A DNA stretch of 5,996 nucleotides, taken from Pseudomonadota bacterium (lineage in GTDB: Bacteria > Pseudomonadota > Alphaproteobacteria > Acetobacterales > Acetobacteraceae). Below the pieces are notes generated by a model that searched no databases, was not told the origin of the DNA, and worked only from the letters and a program-made list of their open reading frames with translations. A program made the position numbers and the translations under genes. Location of the stretch: assembly GCA_021805485.1 (NCBI GenBank), contig JAJZFF010000661.1, positions 1-5,996 on the forward strand, read 5' to 3'. Position 1 is the first letter of the stretch, and every line of letters begins with the position of its first letter. Shown piece by piece: positions 1-5,996 of this stretch.

Positions 1-173
1 CTCAAATCGACGACGTTGGAGAGCATCACCGCACTTGCGACCAAGCTGGCGTATTTCATCTGCTTTTCCTGTTCAACGGGATCGCCGCTCCTGACCACTG
101 GCCCGCCGAAGCAGATCCAGTCAAGAAGCCGACGCCACCGGGCTGTTTGAGCCCAGTCACCTCGTAGGTTCAT
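1..173 (-). pseudogene. Tn3-family transposase (TnpA) C-terminal fragment, off the left edge
   Basis: Read on the minus strand from about position 173 to the window edge, the frame contains a stretch like the C-terminal catalytic region of Tn3-family TnpA. A block reading LLDWICFGG is followed by SGDPVEQEKQMKYASLVASA and then VMLSNVVDL. Related transposases have FGG, then a polar DxxEQ segment, then KYxxLVAN and a hydrophobic helix ending in a V-D-like pair. Intact TnpA is close to 1000 residues; only some 45-57 codons lie here. The frame stays open upstream to about position 359 and into the end of pabC, but the resemblance is lost there (the part before about position 140 is not convincing). 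It is therefore treated as a remnant whose true 5' part is missing. The gene may continue beyond position 1. No 38-bp Tn3 inverted repeat was recognised. Family assignment is by eye. Confidence 0.5.
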
Positions 174-384
174 TTTCGGCCAAATTTTCGAACGCAACAA
201 AAGCAGGCGGCGCGTTTGGCTGTTGGCCTTTCGATCCCGGATGGTCGCTGGTCGGAATAGCTGGGAGATGTCTGTTGGAACGAGAACCAGGTCTGGCGGA
301 CCCGTCCGGCTGGTGGCGCCTGAGTATTGCCGAAGAGGTTTTTTCTCGCGGCGAAGCATCCACGGGCGCGGTTGGCCGCGGCAA
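174..384. other. No supported gene between the transposase fragment and pabC
   Basis: About 210 bases separate the transposase fragment from the pabC stop. A minus-strand frame ending at position 157 is open here, but its product is proline- and arginine-rich low-complexity sequence with no recognisable family. A short inverted repeat (CGCGG/CCGCG, 367-380) lies just after the pabC stop. On the minus strand it is not followed by a run of T, so it is not a convincing intrinsic terminator. Confidence 0.4.
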
Positions 385-1188
385 TCAGCCTGCCATTGCC
401 TGACGGGCAAGATCAGCGAGGACGTCTGACCTCGTGCCGATCGGTCGGCCGTCGATCGATGCAAGCGGGCGCAGCGCCAGGCTGCTGCTCAAGAAGACTG
501 CGTCGGCAGCAAGCAGATCCTCGACAAGCAAGGGGGCTTCCCGCGCATCGCATCGCTCGATCAGAACCTCGCGCATGATGCCGGGCAGTGCGCCGTCGGC
601 AACCGGCGGCGTCACGAGCGCCCCATTTCGAAGGACAAGGATGTTGGCAGCCGTTGCCTCCGCAACGTAACCACGTGTGTTGAGCAGCAATGCCTCATCG
701 GCGCCCCGCCTGGCCGCTTCCTGCCGTGCCAGGACACTATCCAGAAAATTGAGTGATTTGATACGGCTGAGTGGCGACATCTCGTTCCGTCGCGTCACTG
801 TGCAGGTGATCGCATCAGCCGCCGCAGCGATATCCGGGAGCCGTCCCGACGCGACCAGTACGGTCGGCTCCGAAGCCGGCGGCGGCATCACGCCGCGCAA
901 CGCCGGGCCACGCGAGACAGTCAGGCGGACTGCGGCGCTCTCCAGCCCGTTCGCTCGCAGCGCAACGGCAATGGCGTCCGCAAGGTCAGCGTCGGTCAAG
1001 GCGAGCGGTAGGGCAAGCACGGCCAAGCCAGCGCGCAGGCGCCGCAAATGCCGCTGCAGGTGTTGCGGTTTTCCATCAACCACGCGGATCGTCTCGAACA
1101 TGCCGTCGCCCAGCGTGAACCCCCGGTCTGCGGGATCTATGCACCTCGCCGTCGCCGGCATGATCGCGCCATTGAGCCAGACCTTCAT
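385..1188 (-). CDS. pabC: Aminodeoxychorismate lyase (class IV PLP aminotransferase fold)
   Basis: A 267-residue cytoplasmic PLP enzyme of the branched-chain/D-amino-acid aminotransferase fold. With pabB next to it, the likely reaction is cleavage of 4-amino-4-deoxychorismate to p-aminobenzoate and pyruvate for folate synthesis. Visible marks are: the N-terminal MKVWLNG start; the D-x-x-D-R-G-F-x-L-G-D-G-x-F-E-T block at residues 18-33; the PLP Schiff-base lysine K144 in RIKSLNFL; and the conserved glutamate E177 in a VAEATAANI segment. Length matches the family (about 260-290). A GTG two codons upstream (1194) is possible. ATG at 1188 is preferred because it overlaps the pabB stop as ATGA, the signature of translational coupling. 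Alternatives within the fold are D-amino-acid or branched-chain aminotransferases. The fold is certain; the PabC role rests mainly on the operon. Confidence 0.9.
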   Translation of the reverse strand: MKVWLNGAIMPATARCIDPADRGFTLGDGMFETIRVVDGKPQHLQRHLRRLRAGLAVLALPLALTDADLADAIAVALRANGLESAAVRLTVSRGPALRGVMPPPASEPTVLVASGRLPDIAAAADAITCTVTRRNEMSPLSRIKSLNFLDSVLARQEAARRGADEALLLNTRGYVAEATAANILVLRNGALVTPPVADGALPGIMREVLIERCDAREAPLLVEDLLAADAVFLSSSLALRPLASIDGRPIGTRSDVLADLARQAMAG

Positions 1189-2600
1189 GCGCACGCCTCA
1201 TCCGAAGGCATGCCGAGAACTCGGAGCAAGGGCCGTACTTTCACGAGCTGCTCTTCGTACTCGCCGGCCGGGTCGGAGTCCGCCACAATGCCACCCCCGG
1301 CTTGGGCCACGACCAGATCAGGCGTGATCACAAGGGTGCGTATGACAATGCTGCTGTCCATCGTGCCGTCGAAACCGATCCAGGCAATTGCGCCGCAATA
1401 GGGACCACGGCGCGCGGCCTCGAGCTCGTCGATAATCTCCATGGCGCGCAGCTTCGGCGCTCCCGTGACCGAACCGCCGGGAAACGTTGCTCGCAGCAGG
1501 TCAACCGGACCGAGACCGGGACGCAGCCGGCCCTCAACAGTGGACACCAGGTGATGCACGGACGCGAAGCTTTCGATTTCAAACAGCGATGGCACCGTCA
1601 CACTGCCGATCTTTGCCACGCGGCCGACATCGTTGCGCAGCAAGTCGACAATCATTAAGTTCTCGGCACGATCTTTCTCGCTCGCGGCCAGTTCTTGTGC
1701 TGCGGCTGCGTCCATCACGGGATCGGCATAACGCGGCCGGGTACCTTTGATCGGTCGCGTTTCGACGCGGCCCGTTGCATCGAGCCGCAGGAAGCGCTCG
1801 GGTGAGGCGCTCGCCAGCGTGAGCCGAGAGCCGCAGGCAACGAAGGCGCTGAAGGGCGCGGGACTTCGTGTGCGCAGGCGCAGGTAGAGGTCTGCGGCAC
1901 GGTGACGAGGCTGCCTTGGCGTCAAGTGGCGCATGGTGAAGTTGGCTTGGAATATGTCGCCGGCACGGATGTAGTCGAGTACACGCATGATCCGGGCCTC
2001 ATACGCTTGCCGGGTCAGTTCCGGCCGCCATCGTGCTCCGGTGTGCTCATGGCCAGCACTCGACGGAATGGGCGTCACGCCTTCCAAGCGGCGTAGTATG
2101 GCGTTTGCCCGCGCCGCTGCGCGGCTTTTCCGCGCTTCGGACGCGGTCTCGGGAAAACCTGACGAGAGCACCCAGCAGCGTCGTGTGTCTTCGTCGAACG
2201 CAAGCATGATATCGTGGAAGGCCACGGCCATGTCCGGAATGCCCAGCCCATCCACGTGGCGCCGGGGCAAACGCTCCAGGTGGCCGCCCAACTCGTACCC
2301 CAGGAAGCCGACCGCGCCCCCCGCGAACGGAACGGGTGCCTGCCCCGGCTCCAGCCGCCAGCGTGCGAGTTCGCGCTGTAAAGCCTGGAACGGATCTCCT
2401 TCAACGGGCGTTCCGTTCACGGTGACACGGGCGTCCTTCGCCTCCAACACCTGAAACGGCTTGACGCACAAGTAGCTGTAACGGCTGCGCGGGTCAGCCG
2501 GTGCCGCGCTGTCCAGCCAGGTCACATACGGGTCGTCCGCCCAAACCGCGAATGCCTCGGCTGGCGGGCGCCAAGCAATCTCTTGGATATGGATCATCAT
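1185..2600 (-). CDS. pabB: Aminodeoxychorismate synthase component I
   Basis: A 471-residue chorismate-binding enzyme that uses ammonia from the PabA glutaminase to turn chorismate into 4-amino-4-deoxychorismate. An N-terminal TrpE-like region (DSAAPADPRSRYSYLCVKPF near residue 30; GGAVGFLGYELGG near residue 95) precedes the chorismate-binding domain. Diagnostic motifs are PIKGTRPR with the PabB-type lysine K285 (anthranilate synthase has PIAGT), EKDRAENLMIVDLLRND, FPGGSVTGAPKLRAMEIIDE, GAIAWIGFDG, and AGGGIVADSDP near the end. A longer TTG-started frame from 2666 exists. The family start resembles MIHIQEIAWR, so ATG 2600 (or the adjacent ATG 2597) is chosen. The stop overlaps the pabC start as ATGA. 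No pabA is in the window. The gene is divergent from the IS256 remnant, with its start about 110 bases away, and no strong promoter was recognised between them. Confidence 0.93.
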   Translation of the reverse strand: MMIHIQEIAWRPPAEAFAVWADDPYVTWLDSAAPADPRSRYSYLCVKPFQVLEAKDARVTVNGTPVEGDPFQALQRELARWRLEPGQAPVPFAGGAVGFLGYELGGHLERLPRRHVDGLGIPDMAVAFHDIMLAFDEDTRRCWVLSSGFPETASEARKSRAAARANAILRRLEGVTPIPSSAGHEHTGARWRPELTRQAYEARIMRVLDYIRAGDIFQANFTMRHLTPRQPRHRAADLYLRLRTRSPAPFSAFVACGSRLTLASASPERFLRLDATGRVETRPIKGTRPRYADPVMDAAAAQELAASEKDRAENLMIVDLLRNDVGRVAKIGSVTVPSLFEIESFASVHHLVSTVEGRLRPGLGPVDLLRATFPGGSVTGAPKLRAMEIIDELEAARRGPYCGAIAWIGFDGTMDSSIVIRTLVITPDLVVAQAGGGIVADSDPAGEYEEQLVKVRPLLRVLGMPSDEACA

Positions 2601-2644
2601 GCCACGGATCCCGTCGCGAAGTGTGTAGAAATTCTGGGTGGCAT
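2597..2644 (-). CDS. Possible 15-codon leader ORF overlapping the pabB start
   Basis: On the minus strand an ATG at 2644 follows AGGAG (2652-2648) and opens a 15-codon frame, MPPRISTHFATGSVA. Its TGA (2599-2597) overlaps the pabB ATG (2600-2598) as ATGA. This is the same arrangement as pabB/pabC, and it would couple pabB initiation to translation of the leader. The gap between AGGAG and ATG is only 3 bases, shorter than optimal. The peptide shows no run of one amino acid that would suggest classical attenuation. It could equally be chance in the 5' untranslated region. Confidence 0.3.
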   Translation of the reverse strand: MPPRISTHFATGSVA

Positions 2645-2707
2645 AATCTCCTGAATTGCAAAGCAACCAGCAAACCGGCGGTTGGCGCCGCCGGAGGAGA
2701 TCACGCC

Positions 2708-3041
2708 ATGACGCAGAATATCACTACTGAGAACGAAGTTCCATTCCTGGGTGAGGATTGGGTCGATCCGCTTGAGGCCGGGGTCCGTCAGCAGGTCCGG
2801 CACTTCATTGAAAACATTCTTGAGCAAGAGCTTGCAGCGGTGCTCGGCCGCGGTCGGTACGGCCGGAGCGACGGGGCTGCCGGGTATCGGAACGGTCACC
2901 GAGAGCGGCAATTACTCGACACGTTCGGGCCGATGACGGTTTCGGTTCCCAGGGCCAGGGTGACCGTGGCGGACGGCAAGCAGACCGAATGGCGCGGCAA
3001 GGCGCTGCCGGCTTACAAGCCACCTGACGGTGCAGGCCGAG
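2708..3041 (+). pseudogene. IS256 (Mutator)-family transposase, truncated and frameshifted
   Basis: An ATG at 2708 behind a strong GGAGGAGA (2693-2700, 7-base gap) begins the N-terminal domain of an IS256-family transposase. The domain contains VRHFIENILEQELAAVLGR at residues 30-48, GYRNGHRERQLL at 59-70 and FGPMTVSVPRAR at 73-84. After AYK (residues 102-104, near 3019) the expected LTVQAE continues only in the +1 frame (CTG ACG GTG CAG GCC GAG, 3024-3041), so a one-base change has broken the frame. Similarity stops soon after. Intact family members are about 400 residues with a DDE catalytic triad; none of the triad is present, so this copy cannot make an active transposase. The open frame runs on to about 3079 as nonsense. 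Terminal inverted repeats were not identified. The remnant lies directly upstream of the cobalamin-regulated cassette and divergent from pabB. Confidence 0.87.
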
Positions 3042-3057
3042 CGGCCCAATCGCCGAT

Positions 3058-3091
3058 GCGCGCCAATGGCGCGCCTTGACAGCGTCAAGGC
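3058..3091. repeat. Two abutting palindromes upstream of the riboswitch
   Basis: The first is GCGCGCCA/TGGCGCGC around a single central A (3058-3074). The second is GCCTTGAC/GTCAAGGC around AGC (3073-3091), sharing two bases with the first. The second is followed three bases later by TTTT (3096-3099), so it could act as a weak intrinsic terminator for transcription arriving from the IS256 side. Alternatively it is an operator overlapping the candidate -35 hexamer. The symmetry is seen directly; either role is inferred. Confidence 0.5.
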
Positions 3092-3102
3092 TCAGTTTTA
3101 AT
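3076..3102 (+). promoter_or_regulatory. Candidate sigma-70-type promoter for the cobalamin-regulated cassette
   Basis: TTGACA at 3076-3081 matches the -35 consensus perfectly. TTTAAT at 3097-3102 matches five of six positions of the -10. The 15-base spacer is shorter than the usual 17. Transcription would begin near 3109, immediately before the first strand of the riboswitch P1 helix, which is where a riboswitch promoter should put it. The -35 lies inside a palindrome, so the TTGACA could be fortuitous. Confidence 0.4.
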
Positions 3103-3107
3103 CAACG

Positions 3108-3266
3108 GATATCCAGTATCCCGGAACGCGGTGAAATTCCGCGGCGGTCCCGCCGCTGTAATCGGGGACGTCGGAGACAAGGCGACGAGCCAGCCACTGG
3201 CAGGGTCTACCCTGCCGGGAAGGTGTCTGCAACGGACGATCCGAGAGCCAGAAGACCTGCTGGATC
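3108..3266 (+). promoter_or_regulatory. Cobalamin (B12) riboswitch aptamer
   Basis: The conserved landmarks of the cobalamin riboswitch occur in order. They are GGTGAAATTCCGCGGCGGTC (from 3130) running into CCGCCGCTGTA, the GCCACTG core (3193-3199), a GGCAGGG/CCCTGCC hairpin with loop TCTA (3199-3216), CCGGGAAGG (3215-3223), and the B12 box AGCCAGAAGACCTGC (3246-3260; family consensus AGCCAGGAGACCTGCC). A closing P1 helix can form between ATCCAG (3111-3116) and CTGGAT (3260-3265), fixing the boundaries within a few bases. The family senses adenosylcobalamin or other cobalamins and usually lowers expression on binding. Here it sits about 90 bases ahead of a small peptide gene and a radical SAM enzyme, not before the usual B12 synthesis or uptake genes. 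Confidence 0.95.
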
Positions 3267-3280
3267 TGATTCACGAAGGG

Positions 3281-3347
3281 CGAAATCCGATGGAAAGGAT
3301 TTCGGCGAGGCCGTTCGCCTGCCGACGTCCTTCATTGTGCATCGGAG
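3281..3347 (+). promoter_or_regulatory. Candidate expression platform that can mask the cbpA ribosome site
   Basis: Two mutually exclusive pairings are visible between the aptamer and the small gene. One is a local hairpin, CGAAATCC/GGATTTCG with an 8-base loop (3281-3288 and 3297-3304). The other pairs TCCGATG (3286-3292) with CATCGGA (3340-3346), covering most of the Shine-Dalgarno GGAG (3344-3347) in front of GTG 3354. Formation of the first helix uses bases needed for the second. This suggests translational control, consistent with the absence of a terminator with a T run here. The pairings are read from the sequence; the switching mechanism is inferred and no energies were computed. Confidence 0.45.
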
Positions 3348-3353
3348 AAGATC

Positions 3354-3494
3354 GTGAAGAAATCGCCTGATCGTAAACCCGACCAAGCCTCGAACAAGCC
3401 TCGCCCGGCGGTGATCGCCATCCGCAAGACTTGCGACGCGGAAGGCACGGGCCTGTCGCATTACGTTCTCATGGACAAGCAGGTGAAACGGTGA
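3354..3494 (+). CDS. cbpA: Putative RiPP precursor peptide, CbpA-like (46 residues)
   Basis: A 46-codon gene starts at GTG 3354 behind GGAG (3344-3347, 6-base gap). There is no in-frame ATG upstream. Residues 1-19 are lysine-, proline- and charge-rich (MKKSPDRKPDQASNKPRPA), like a leader. Residues 20-46 hold a compact segment, VIAIRKTCDAEGTGLSHYVL followed by MDKQVKR. It has one cysteine (C27), a GTG turn (31-33), H36 and Y37, all plausible sites of radical SAM chemistry. The TGA (3492-3494) overlaps the GTG start of the radical SAM/SPASM gene as GTGA, so the two are translated as a coupled pair. From memory, family databases hold a CbpA precursor family paired with the CbpB enzyme; I could not check this. 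There is no signal peptide or membrane segment. Which residues are modified, and what the peptide does, cannot be read from the sequence. Confidence 0.75.
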   Translation: MKKSPDRKPDQASNKPRPAVIAIRKTCDAEGTGLSHYVLMDKQVKR

Positions 3495-4888
3495 GCGCGC
3501 TGCCCCCGCGCTCCTCGCTGGAGGGCTCCGCAAGGAGCCCTCTTTCGCCCCTCCAGCCCTTCGACATCGCCCATCCCACCCACATCGCCGTGGTTGAGCC
3601 GGACAGCGCGTTCTGGGGGATCGTGCAAAAAGATCGCCTCGCCGAGTCGCTGGCGGGCGGGGTTTTGCGCGACACGCTGTGCGCCAAGGGCGCAGCGTTC
3701 GCGCGCGAAATGGATATGCTGCGGTTCCATCTGAAAGCCTCGGCGGTCTATTTCAATCCGACCGAACGCTGCAACCTGAACTGCTCCTATTGCTACATAC
3801 CGAGCGACATGCGCCGCCGCGGTAAGCAGATGGAGAAGAGCGAGGTTCTGGAAGCGCTGGAGCGGCTTCACCAATATTTTCGCGGCCATATGCCGGAGGA
3901 TCGACTGCCGCAAGTGATCTTTCACGGCGCCGAGCCCCTTCTGGCGCGCAAAGCCATTTTCGCGGGCATTGAAGCCTTTGGCGACCGGTTTCGGTTCGGG
4001 GTTCAGACCAACGCCACCCTACTTGATGAAGAGGCTGTATCGTTCCTGACCTCGCGCGGAATTGGCGTCGGCCTGTCCCTCGACGGGCCGGCGGCCGACA
4101 TAGCCAATCGCACGCGGAGGCGGTGGAGCGGCGAGGGAATCTTCGAGCAAGTCATCCACGCCATCGACCTGCTCGACGGCTATCCGGGCTACAATGTCAT
4201 CTGCACGATGACATCGGAGAACCTGCCTCATTTGACTGAGATGGTGGAGTTCTTCCACGAGCGGAAAGTGCCAGCCTGCATGCTCAACGTCACCCGTTGC
4301 ACTATGCCGGGAGCCCGCACGGTTCACGGCGGCGACGCGGAGGTGGCGGCAGGTTATATCGCCGCGTTGGAAAGAACGCATCAGCTATACCTGGAAACAG
4401 GACGAAAACTGGTTGTCGCCAATTTCGCCAATATCTTGATCGCCATTCTGGCGCCGACGGCGCGACGGCTGATGTGCGACATTTCACCCTGCGGCGGCGG
4501 TCGCAGCTTTTTCGCCCTCGCGCCGGGTGGCGATCTGTTCCCATGCAGCGAATTCATCGGCCTCCCCGCCTTCAACGGCGGCAACTTGTTTAAACAGCCG
4601 ATCGAGGACATCATCGACAGCGCGCCTTTTCGTCTGGTGACGGACCGGAAGGTCGAGGATATTCCAGGCTGCGACACTTGCGTCATCCGTCATTTCTGCG
4701 GCTCACCATGTCCGGCGGAAGCGCATGAAATGAACGGCGGCATGACGCAAAAAGGCGCCTTCTGTGACTTTTACAAGGAACAGGTGCGATACGCCCTGCG
4801 CCTGATCGCCGACGGCCGCCACGAAGATTTTCTTTGGGACGGGTGGGACGAAGGCGCTGAAATGGCGTGCAGTATCGGCATGACGTAA
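3491..4888 (+). CDS. cbpB: Peptide-modifying radical SAM/SPASM enzyme, CbpB-like
   Basis: A 465-residue cytoplasmic iron-sulfur enzyme. An N-terminal region of about 85 residues precedes the radical SAM core. C94, C98 and C101 in ERCNLNCSYCY bind the SAM-cleaving 4Fe-4S cluster. GAEP (146-149) stands where most relatives have GGEP. GVQTNATLLDEE and VGLSLDGP follow as further core strands. The C-terminal SPASM domain is complete: C334-x12-G347-x4-C352, then C394-x2-C397-x5-C403-x3-C407, then C425, enough for two auxiliary clusters. Such enzymes make thioether, C-C or other crosslinks in ribosomal peptides. A longer frame from ATG 3431 exists, but it would overlap the small peptide gene for 64 bases. 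GTG 3491 gives the 4-base GTGA coupling and is preferred. Expression is presumably under the upstream cobalamin riboswitch. The radical SAM/SPASM identity is certain; the CbpB name is from memory of a family model tied to B12 riboswitches. Confidence 0.92.
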   Translation: MSALPPRSSLEGSARSPLSPLQPFDIAHPTHIAVVEPDSAFWGIVQKDRLAESLAGGVLRDTLCAKGAAFAREMDMLRFHLKASAVYFNPTERCNLNCSYCYIPSDMRRRGKQMEKSEVLEALERLHQYFRGHMPEDRLPQVIFHGAEPLLARKAIFAGIEAFGDRFRFGVQTNATLLDEEAVSFLTSRGIGVGLSLDGPAADIANRTRRRWSGEGIFEQVIHAIDLLDGYPGYNVICTMTSENLPHLTEMVEFFHERKVPACMLNVTRCTMPGARTVHGGDAEVAAGYIAALERTHQLYLETGRKLVVANFANILIAILAPTARRLMCDISPCGGGRSFFALAPGGDLFPCSEFIGLPAFNGGNLFKQPIEDIIDSAPFRLVTDRKVEDIPGCDTCVIRHFCGSPCPAEAHEMNGGMTQKGAFCDFYKEQVRYALRLIADGRHEDFLWDGWDEGAEMACSIGMT

Positions 4889-4932
4889 GACGCCGCAGGC
4901 GACCGAGGAAAGAACGAAAGTAAATCGCTATG

Positions 4933-4962
4933 CTATTCTGACGTCACTCGGCGTCAGAATAG
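4933..4962. repeat. 13-bp hairpin shortly downstream of the radical SAM gene
   Basis: CTATTCTGACG (4933-4943) and CGTCAGAATAG (4952-4962) pair perfectly over 11 bp. The stem extends by a U-G and a C-G pair to a 4-base ACTC loop. It begins 45 bases after the cbpB stop. No T run follows on either strand, so it is either a processing or 3'-end-stabilising hairpin, a factor-dependent terminator, or a protein-binding palindrome. Confidence 0.6.
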
Positions 4963-5116
4963 AGCGCGACTGCGCGGAGCCGTCAACCGCTCATCTGAAC
5001 GTCGATCGGCGGACGCTTACCGCGAGAAAGCGAGAATTCTAGAAAGGAAGAAAGGATTCATACCGTCGCAGACACGGCTTTGAGGGGGCCGAGGGGCGTT
5101 GCCCCTTCTCTTCCCC

Positions 5117-5205
5117 AAACAGGCTTCCGCCGCAAAACGAAGACGAAATTTCCCTATAGGGCGGTCAATTTCGTTTCGTTTTCTGGTCTTCCGAGAAGCC
5201 TGTTT
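5117..5205. repeat. Large nested palindrome upstream of the ArdC-type gene
   Basis: The outer arms are AAACAGGCTTC (5117-5127) and GAAGCCTGTTT (5195-5205), 11 bp perfect. The inner arms are AAAACGAAGACGAAATT (5134-5150) and AATTTCGTTTCGTTTT (5167-5182), a 16-bp stem with one bulged G. The apex contains the perfect palindrome CCCTATAGGG (5152-5161). The whole can fold as one long hairpin of about 89 bases with an internal loop. Its place 80 bases ahead of a plasmid-type gene suggests a regulatory RNA, a single-strand promoter or a transfer/replication-related site; the role is unknown. Confidence 0.65.
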
Positions 5206-5284
5206 TCCCCGTCCAACCCCAGCGCTCGCGCGGCCCCGGGAAGCAGCGAGGCGCCGCTTCGCCGGACCAAGAAAGAGGTTGAAC

Positions 5285-5475
5285 ATGGCCGAATTCCAAG
5301 ATTTTTACGGCAAGATCACCGATCGCATTGTCGCCGATCTGGAGAAGGGCGTGCGGCCGTGGATCATGCCGCCGTGCGGATCACCCGGCCCCTGCGCCAC
5401 AACGGCATTCCCTACAAGGGCATCAATGTCCTGATGCTGTGGTCAGCTTCCGTGACCAAGGGCTACGACGGCGCG
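5285..5475 (+). pseudogene. ArdC-type anti-restriction protein, 5' fragment, frameshifted
   Basis: ATG 5285, with AGAGG a few bases upstream, opens MAEFQDFYGKITDRIVADLE and then KGVRPW, the start of the single-strand DNA-binding N-terminal domain (formerly DUF1738) of ArdC/TraC-primase-like proteins of plasmids and integrative elements. After W26 (near 5363-5365) the expected continuation, HAAVRITRPLRHNGIPYKGI then NVLMLWSASVTKGYDGA, is in another frame. The usual family segment like KPWNAxH is missing, so a deletion of a length not divisible by three has removed it. Similarity ends at about 5475, where IS110-like DNA begins. The normal protein is about 300 residues with a C-terminal metallopeptidase-like domain, absent here. 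The gene is dead; no further piece of it was confidently found on the far side of the IS110 remnant. Confidence 0.8.
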
Positions 5476-5495
5476 CGGGTCCCTCCTATGCACTC

Positions 5496-5720
5496 TCATG
5501 TTCGCCACTTCAAGCTGCAGGCGCACGGGCCGGCCTCGTAGTAGAACCGCAGCTCCGCCCCAGCCCGCGCCAGTTTGGCAGCCAGCCCCTTCAGGGCGGT
5601 GGGCGTGTTCGCGATCTTGCCATGCTCGCGCACTGCATCCCGCCTGCCAATCTCGGCCAGCGCCACCGCAATCGTCTCCTTGTGCACATCGAGGCCGACG
5701 TAAGTGATAGCCTTCTCCAT
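5496..5720 (-). pseudogene. IS110-family recombinase, N-terminal fragment
   Basis: ATG 5720 follows AGGAG (5732-5728, 7-base gap) and opens MEKAITYVGLDVHKETIAVA, the start of the DEDD (RuvC-like) domain of IS110 recombinases. D11 in GLDVHK and E62 in FYYEAGPC are the first two acidic catalytic residues. Family similarity runs to C66 (about 5523). The frame then passes into eight unrelated residues and stops at 5496. Intact proteins are about 320-400 residues with a second acidic pair and a C-terminal serine-containing domain, all missing, so this copy is inactive. A longer frame from ATG 5783 lies inside the structured leader and is not favoured. Confidence 0.87.
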
Positions 5721-5820
5721 GACCCGTCTCCTATGCATGAGGCCAGGCACCGGCCATCCGGTGCAACCCTCGAAAACCTGCATACTGTGAGACGGGTCGC
5801 CCCTATCTCAGGCGAACATC
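5721..5820 (-). ncRNA. Structured left end of the IS110 remnant, possible bridge RNA region
   Basis: Immediately before the recombinase ATG lies a nested hairpin. GACCCGTCTC (5721-5730) pairs with GAGACGGGTC (5789-5798), TATGCA (5732-5737) with TGCATA (5779-5784), and GCACCGG (5747-5753) with CCGGTGC (5758-5764) around a 4-base loop. The outer stem covers half of the recombinase Shine-Dalgarno, so it could also control translation. In IS110-group elements the non-coding end upstream of the recombinase encodes the bridge RNA with internal loops that specify target and donor DNA; the position and stem-with-internal-loop form fit that. Whether this is one of the bridge loops, and where the RNA begins, cannot be settled by eye. 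Confidence 0.4.
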
Positions 5821-5857
5821 TGGTCTACTGGATAAGCCCAAACTTGCATACCCAGAG

Positions 5858-5884
5858 GGGTCACGGTTGGACGCGAATTGACAC
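5858..5884 (-). repeat. IS21-like terminal sequence
   Basis: Read on the minus strand from 5884, the DNA begins TGTCAATTCGCGTCC and reaches GTGACCCC. This resembles ends of IS21-family elements, which start with TG and carry a TGACCCC-like inner block. The recombinase coding frame on the other side stops exactly at this point, supporting a real element boundary. No istA or istB coding sequence follows, so at most a stub remains. Recognition is from memory of terminus style. Confidence 0.3.
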
Positions 5885-5885
5885 C

Positions 5886-5994
5886 ATAAGGCGCACCACG
5901 TCCGTCGGCGTCGCCGCGGCGAGCGGCCGAAGAAGCGGTCGAACTTGGCCACGGCGTGGACATAGGATCGCTGGGTTGCCGGCGACAGGTTGCG
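5886..5994 (-). pseudogene. Tyrosine recombinase (phage-type integrase) N-terminal fragment
   Basis: On the minus strand, RNLSPATQRSYVHAVAKFDR followed by FFGRSP (5994-5917) matches the N-terminal core-binding, SAM-like domain of XerC/D-type tyrosine recombinases, with the S-P-x-T-x-x-x-Y pattern and F-x-x-F-x-G-R-S-P end. The expected following segment appears in a shifted frame as ATPTDVVRLMV up to about 5886, so a small indel has broken the gene. Similarity then stops at the IS21-like end. The start codon lies beyond the right edge or just outside it. The catalytic domain is absent. Confidence 0.65.
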
Positions 5995-5996
5995 GA

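Follow-up and report, generated by a model that had tools for sequence, protein, structure and literature searches.

The window analyzed here is a 5,996-nucleotide stretch (contig JAJZFF010000661.1 of GenBank assembly GCA_021805485.1, positions 1 to 5,996 of the forward strand) from a member of the Acetobacteraceae. It carries on the plus strand a cobalamin riboswitch followed by two genes, cbpA and cbpB, which encode a short precursor peptide and a radical SAM/SPASM enzyme predicted to modify it. The initial annotation had read the region as a B12-riboswitch-controlled CbpA/CbpB cassette of the type that yields ribosomally synthesized and post-translationally modified peptides (RiPPs), and had set aptamer and cassette at positions 3108–4888; the elements are indeed present, but the aptamer starts at 3097, 11 bases before 3108. 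A cmscan search against Rfam, the check proposed with that annotation, matches the complete model of family RF00174 (model positions 1–189) to positions 3097–3278, with 85.4 bits against a gathering threshold of 31.5 and an E-value of 1.2e-20. The 3′ side of the aptamer includes the sequence AGCCAGAAGACC (3246–3257), which we take to be the B12 box and which was the motif used to scan relatives. The cbpA gene (3354–3494) reads from a GTG at 3354 to a TGA ending at 3494 and encodes 46 residues; its Shine-Dalgarno region CATCGGAG (3340–3347) ends 6 bases 5′ of the start codon. The C-terminal part of CbpA, from RPAVIAIRKTCDAEGTGLSHYVLMDKQVKR onwards (3405–3491), is conserved in alignments and is the presumed core. 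The cbpB gene (3491–4888, GTG to TAA) encodes 465 residues, and the GTGA at 3491–3494 is common to the cbpA stop and the cbpB start, so that the coupling of a 46-codon peptide gene to its enzyme stands as first described.

Both proteins belong to families of NCBIfam. CbpA scores 60.5 bits over residues 20–44 with TIGR04164 (cut-off 35), and CbpB scores 701.4 bits with TIGR04163 (cut-off 375) over model positions 1–428 of 428, in addition to matching the Pfam families Radical_SAM (65.5, cut-off 29.5) and SPASM (25.1, cut-off 21.5). The initial annotation was thus correct in stating that databases name this pair, and RefSeq annotates it on plasmid pHY1 of Methylovirgula. Ten cysteines of CbpB (C94, C98, C101, C334, C352, C394, C397, C403, C407 and C425) are invariant in 31 sequences; they provide the CX3CX2C spacing, which we take as the hallmark of radical SAM enzymes, together with the SPASM cysteines, and place CbpB among the radical SAM/SPASM proteins. 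The assignment agrees with an AlphaFold 2 (AF2) model of the enzyme and its structural matches. Its N-terminal domain, which may be a PqqD-like RiPP recognition element (RRE), has a β3-α2 arrangement and, searched alone, has no significant match in the PDB; the alignment of the full model with entry 5wgg begins at residue 14. Judged from the genetic arrangement, with a precursor gene adjoining an enzyme gene, the locus is a putative RiPP-type cassette.

The peptide and the enzyme are conserved together. When proteins were searched with CbpB, 2426 of 7998 scored candidates matched at E ≤ 0.001, other radical SAM families included; CbpA as query gave 204 matches at E ≤ 0.1. One genome per species was then scanned, which yielded 261 loci; the best 80 were kept, and conservation may be overstated because cores were read in these best 80 of 261. 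With 2 further loci, 12 more (L083–L094) and the window, the core set comprises 95 sequences, and a CbpA core stands beside CbpB in 94 of them, the exception (L022) being cut by a contig end. The small reading frame is therefore conserved beside homologous enzymes, and no different substrate gene takes its place, one CbpA type occurring in all untruncated loci read. The nearly fixed core is R-[KRQ]-x-C-x3-G-x-G-L-S-H-[YF], a pattern that was imposed by the search and that all sequences except L022 fit. In 93 regularly spaced cores, an Arg at −3 precedes the Cys, three residues separate the latter from GxGLSH, and Tyr (86) or Phe (7) follows; further downstream are Leu at +12 in 91, Met at +13 in 86 and Asp at +14 in 84. 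Four irregular cores were left out of the 93, with one extra residue (L007) or two adjacent Cys (L020, L024, L033). Two tandem cores per CbpA occur in L043, L056 and L070, all gammaproteobacterial, and mark the repeat unit. A different peptide in gamma- and betaproteobacterial relatives was considered and rejected, as the frames read there contain GVG, GIG or GAG cores. By hand count, 70 of 93 loci offer a cbpB start that overlaps the stop codon of cbpA, at −4 in 60 and at −1 in 10.

In the tree built from the CbpB proteins of the window and the 80 loci, 12 phylum labels are represented; these were taken from submitters' titles and may include binning errors of metagenome-assembled genomes (MAGs). 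The window groups with full support with Rhodoblastus, its closest relatives in the tree (81% identity to L001). Named isolates carrying the cassette belong to Rhodoblastus, Magnetospirillum, Blastochloris and Propionivibrio. In a phage collection, CbpB matched 29 records, all below 60% identity and none spanning 80% of the enzyme; a plasmid collection held one record above 60% identity, the 278-kb pHY1 of Methylovirgula sp. HY1 (L095), on which the annotated cbpA and cbpB lie near pqqA, pqqD, pqqE and a further radical SAM gene. Locus L065 has a second open reading frame (ORF) that clusters with CbpB, at 17749–19011, about 7 kb downstream of cbpB.

The riboswitch is equally a regular part of the locus. 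Rfam scans at the gathering threshold covered 64 loci from the set of 80, 7 of the 12 in L083–L094 and one plasmid stretch, and a riboswitch lies directly upstream of the cassette in 55/64 and 7/7, that is in 62 of the 71 genome loci scanned (in L035 barely above threshold, with 33.4 bits). Whole genomes contain 0 to 9 RF00174 riboswitches, with at least one in 49 of 50, so that this rate at the cassette exceeds chance. A chance reading of the riboswitch or of the small ORF is rejected by the model scores, the homologues and the riboswitches of relatives. Contig ends explain four of the nine scanned loci lacking one (L022, L034, L061, L077), and in L053 and L078 the cassette comes after cob genes of the same orientation, with a riboswitch at 468 ahead of the L053 cluster. 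A fluoride riboswitch was also recorded in the Telmatospirillum siberiense locus L016 (9038–9098, minus strand).

The part of the leader downstream of the aptamer differs between lineages. A hairpin followed by a T-run lies between B12 box and core in 43 of 79 loci, and terminator control is likely there on the evidence of these leaders. The remaining 36 have no such terminator and include the window, in whose leader no T-run terminator was found, and the alphaproteobacteria read. In the window, positions 3286–3292 form a putative anti-Shine-Dalgarno element with 7 pairs to the Shine-Dalgarno sequence at 3340–3346. Across 16 alphaproteobacterial-type leaders (15 of the 36 and the window), 98.2% of the alignment cells are paired, with one double change, and 42 of 500 shuffles score as high. 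The RNAalifold consensus of the same leaders prefers another structure with the Shine-Dalgarno region unpaired, so we regard the helix as an alternative conformation with weak covariation and translational control in the window as plausible.

Neighbouring genes were compared by grouping the ORFs from the window and from the 80 loci into clusters; neighbours are undercounted because the ORF rule was crude. All clusters present in at least 4 loci were annotated but three, of which two overlap the cassette on the opposite strand and one occurs in L004, L028, L045 and L072. No universal neighbour besides cbpAB was found in these loci. Among the annotated clusters, the function-specific neighbours common to several phyla are cobalamin genes: CbiA/CobB, an aminotransferase-CbiP-like fusion, CbiB, CobS, CobT, CobU, tetrapyrrole methylases and CbiG, with CbiC and CbiD in smaller clusters. 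Such neighbours occur in 11 of the 80 loci (L032, L035, L041, L043, L053, L056, L059, L069, L071, L076, L078), or in twelve if a lone methylase-type ORF in L065 is counted. In L032, L035 and L041, a second riboswitch is oriented oppositely, toward the cob genes, and two genomes, G234 and G202, have a CbiM gene 3′ of cbpB with its own riboswitch in between. In G226 (L085), cbpAB with its own riboswitch adjoins a second riboswitch, which is followed on the same strand by a TonB receptor (BtuB-like), an unassigned ORF, BtuR, CbiA, a nitroreductase that is probably BluB-like by its position, and CbiB, with an aminotransferase on the other strand. The other clusters in at least 4 loci are sensor kinases, ABC-F, methyl-accepting chemotaxis proteins (MCP), GGDEF and AMP-binding proteins and a tetratricopeptide repeat (TPR) protein. 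A resistance-nodulation-division (RND) efflux pump with a HlyD-type adaptor lies near cbpAB in L018, L047, L058 and L079 (Nitrospinota-type loci and one Rhodoblastus).

In the window itself, a pabC-like gene of the class IV aminotransferases (385–1194, minus strand) overlaps a pabB-like chorismate-binding gene (1185–2666, minus strand). The cassette is flanked by pieces resembling an IS256/mutator transposase (2709–3077, plus strand), the N-terminus of ArdC (5285–5434, plus strand) and the N-terminus of an IS110 transposase (5496–5783, minus strand), and may therefore occupy a mobile or rearranged region. Matches of the window DNA in the plasmid collection were limited to the short stretches 5079–5131 and 5314–5362.

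The distribution of CbpB was compared with B12 synthesis and cobalt import. Of 50 genomes chosen from the 80 loci, CbiC is present in 40; among the ten others, tetrapyrrole methylases number five in two genomes and one or two in the remaining eight, and the absence of CbiC from MAGs may reflect incompleteness. By Fisher tests, which ignore kinship, CbiC is found in 24/24 CbpB-positive versus 25/31 CbpB-negative genomes of the G023 family (55 genomes; p 0.03) and in 11/14 versus 38/136 of the G047 family (150 sampled; p 0.0003), in which CobS also goes with CbpB (14/14 versus 102/136; p 0.04). The three CbpB-positive genomes of this family that lack CbiC are G120, G150 and G226, in which the contigs bearing cbpB measure 2.7, 4.0 and 4.2 Mb; like the isolate G045, they possess just two tetrapyrrole methylases each, which makes ring synthesis unlikely in all four. 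Among the 49 ring makers of the G047 family, CbiM is present in 10/11 CbpB-positive and 35/38 CbpB-negative genomes (hand tally), and CbtA in four, including three of the four without CbiM. A substitution of CbpAB for known cobalt importers is rejected by this similar occurrence of CbiM, and a cassette serving ring makers only is rejected as too strict. Taken together, these data indicate that the cassette neither replaces these importers nor requires ring synthesis; it comes in addition to importers that are themselves unchanged. The same data bear on the suggestion of a cobalt metallophore or chaperone that would act in cobalt insertion during de novo corrin synthesis only. The enrichment of CbpB among ring makers, the CbiM gene, of a cobalt importer family, adjoining cbpB in two genomes and the Cys and His fixed in the core would all suit it; given the four genomes that have cbpB without CbiC and with at most two methylases, and given that known importers are kept, we find it unlikely. 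As the cassette is kept in genomes that do not synthesize the ring, cobalt insertion alone fits less well than corrinoid handling or a shared late need, and a role confined to de novo insertion, or one of replacing known importers, is disfavoured.

We consider it moderately probable that cbpAB is a RiPP-type cassette which belongs to the cobamide-supply regulon, is induced by B12 starvation and has a role in cobalt or corrinoid handling. Its parts, their conservation together, its membership in the regulon and its link to cob genes are direct observations, and because regulation, neighbours and distribution agree, the product probably serves cobamide supply. With ample adenosylcobalamin, the riboswitch would keep cbpAB off, in the window perhaps by masking the cbpA ribosome site and in other relatives by means of the terminator-like hairpin. 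When B12 is short, CbpA and CbpB would be made by coupled translation and CbpB would modify the near-invariant core, probably by linking the invariant Cys to a neighbouring residue; the modified and presumably cleaved core may then help cobalt or corrinoid handling, in cobamide makers as well as in salvage-only cells. Several observations weigh against this proposal. Eight of the 50 CbpB-positive genomes, some perhaps incomplete, lack CbiC and have at most two tetrapyrrole methylases; 69 of the 80 loci have no cob neighbour in the stretch examined, the cob-neighbour count being a lower bound owing to crude ORF calling; no transporter, receptor or protease recurs with the cassette among the neighbour clusters; and a riboswitch is truly absent, with enough upstream sequence, from L038, L060 and L062, as it is from the 538 bases upstream of cbpAB on pHY1.

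A small peptide presumably induced by B12 shortage and encoded in an autonomous two-gene cassette, with no dedicated metabolic partner, could also be a signal or an intracellular regulator reporting that shortage. We think this improbable, as no receptor or regulator recurs specifically (the nearby sensor kinases, MCP and GGDEF proteins belong to common families) and the core is frozen across 12 phylum labels, unlike that of a species-specific signal. The initial annotation had suggested cobalamin scavenging, cobalt binding or B12-status signalling; the genomic context favours cobamide supply over signalling. The frozen core resembles that of cofactor precursors such as PqqA, and the modified peptide might accordingly be a redox or structural cofactor that bypasses a B12-dependent reaction. 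This would have a parallel in the B12-independent isozymes that figure as cobalamin-riboswitch targets in the part of the survey available to us (PMC3766115). No gene for a candidate user enzyme recurs beside cbpAB, however, and most carriers make their own B12, so that we give this explanation little credence. That cbpAB is an ordinary RiPP cassette unrelated to B12, for instance antimicrobial, which acquired a cobalamin riboswitch, is equally doubtful: the loci without cob neighbours and the plasmid relative would agree with it, but the riboswitch is kept despite a lineage-specific downstream regulatory part, and a toxin or diversifying signal is disfavoured by the frozen core and by the lack of any recurrent exporter or immunity gene among the neighbours.

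Within the proposed role in cobamide supply, a more specific possibility, which we advance tentatively from the genomic context, is that the CbpB-modified core itself binds cobalt or a corrinoid. It would then be the first metallophore or carrier in B12 supply to be a ribosomal peptide. If so, CbpA would represent a further class of cobalamin-riboswitch output, nearly unchanged across a dozen phylum labels and kept both in corrin makers and in genomes without ring synthesis. The B12 economy shapes microbial communities, and a frozen, presumably enzyme-modified and B12-controlled peptide in distant phyla suggests an unrecognised step of cobalt or corrinoid handling. The locus is tractable, as it comprises a single peptide and a single enzyme, its effector is defined and isolates that carry it are named.

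Compared with known systems, the window proteins both score above the curated equivalog cut-offs of cobo_pep (TIGR04164) and rSAM_cobopep (TIGR04163), and no difference from these families was found. The family is thus already named in NCBIfam, though uncharacterised; no paper on CbpA/CbpB or its product was found among the papers listed from an open-licence library, and its functional placement in cobamide supply was likewise not found in print there. The CbpB model resembles the structures 5wgg and 5why, which we take to be CteB, and related thioether-forming radical SAM/SPASM maturases, at 20% identity to CteB; CbpA, by contrast, is not Cys-rich, a single invariant Cys being present in the 93 regularly spaced cores. 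With the model of the ranthipeptide maturase PapB (NF047865), CbpB scores 123.3 bits, far under the cut-off of 340. The PapB-type Cys-X3-Asp/Glu motif is absent from CbpA, in which Gly occupies position +4 after the Cys in 93/93 of these cores, whereas Cys-X2-Asp/Glu is present in 74/93; PapB tolerates Cys-Xn-Asp with n from 0 to 6, according to the part of PMC9413430 available to us. Finally, the cassette has the same aptamer family (RF00174) as the cobalamin riboswitch regulon, and some of its loci are surrounded by genes for B12 synthesis or uptake. The targets named in the available part of the survey are B12 synthesis, B12 transport, cobalt transport and isozymes (PMC3766115), and a peptide with its modifying enzyme would add a class beyond these.
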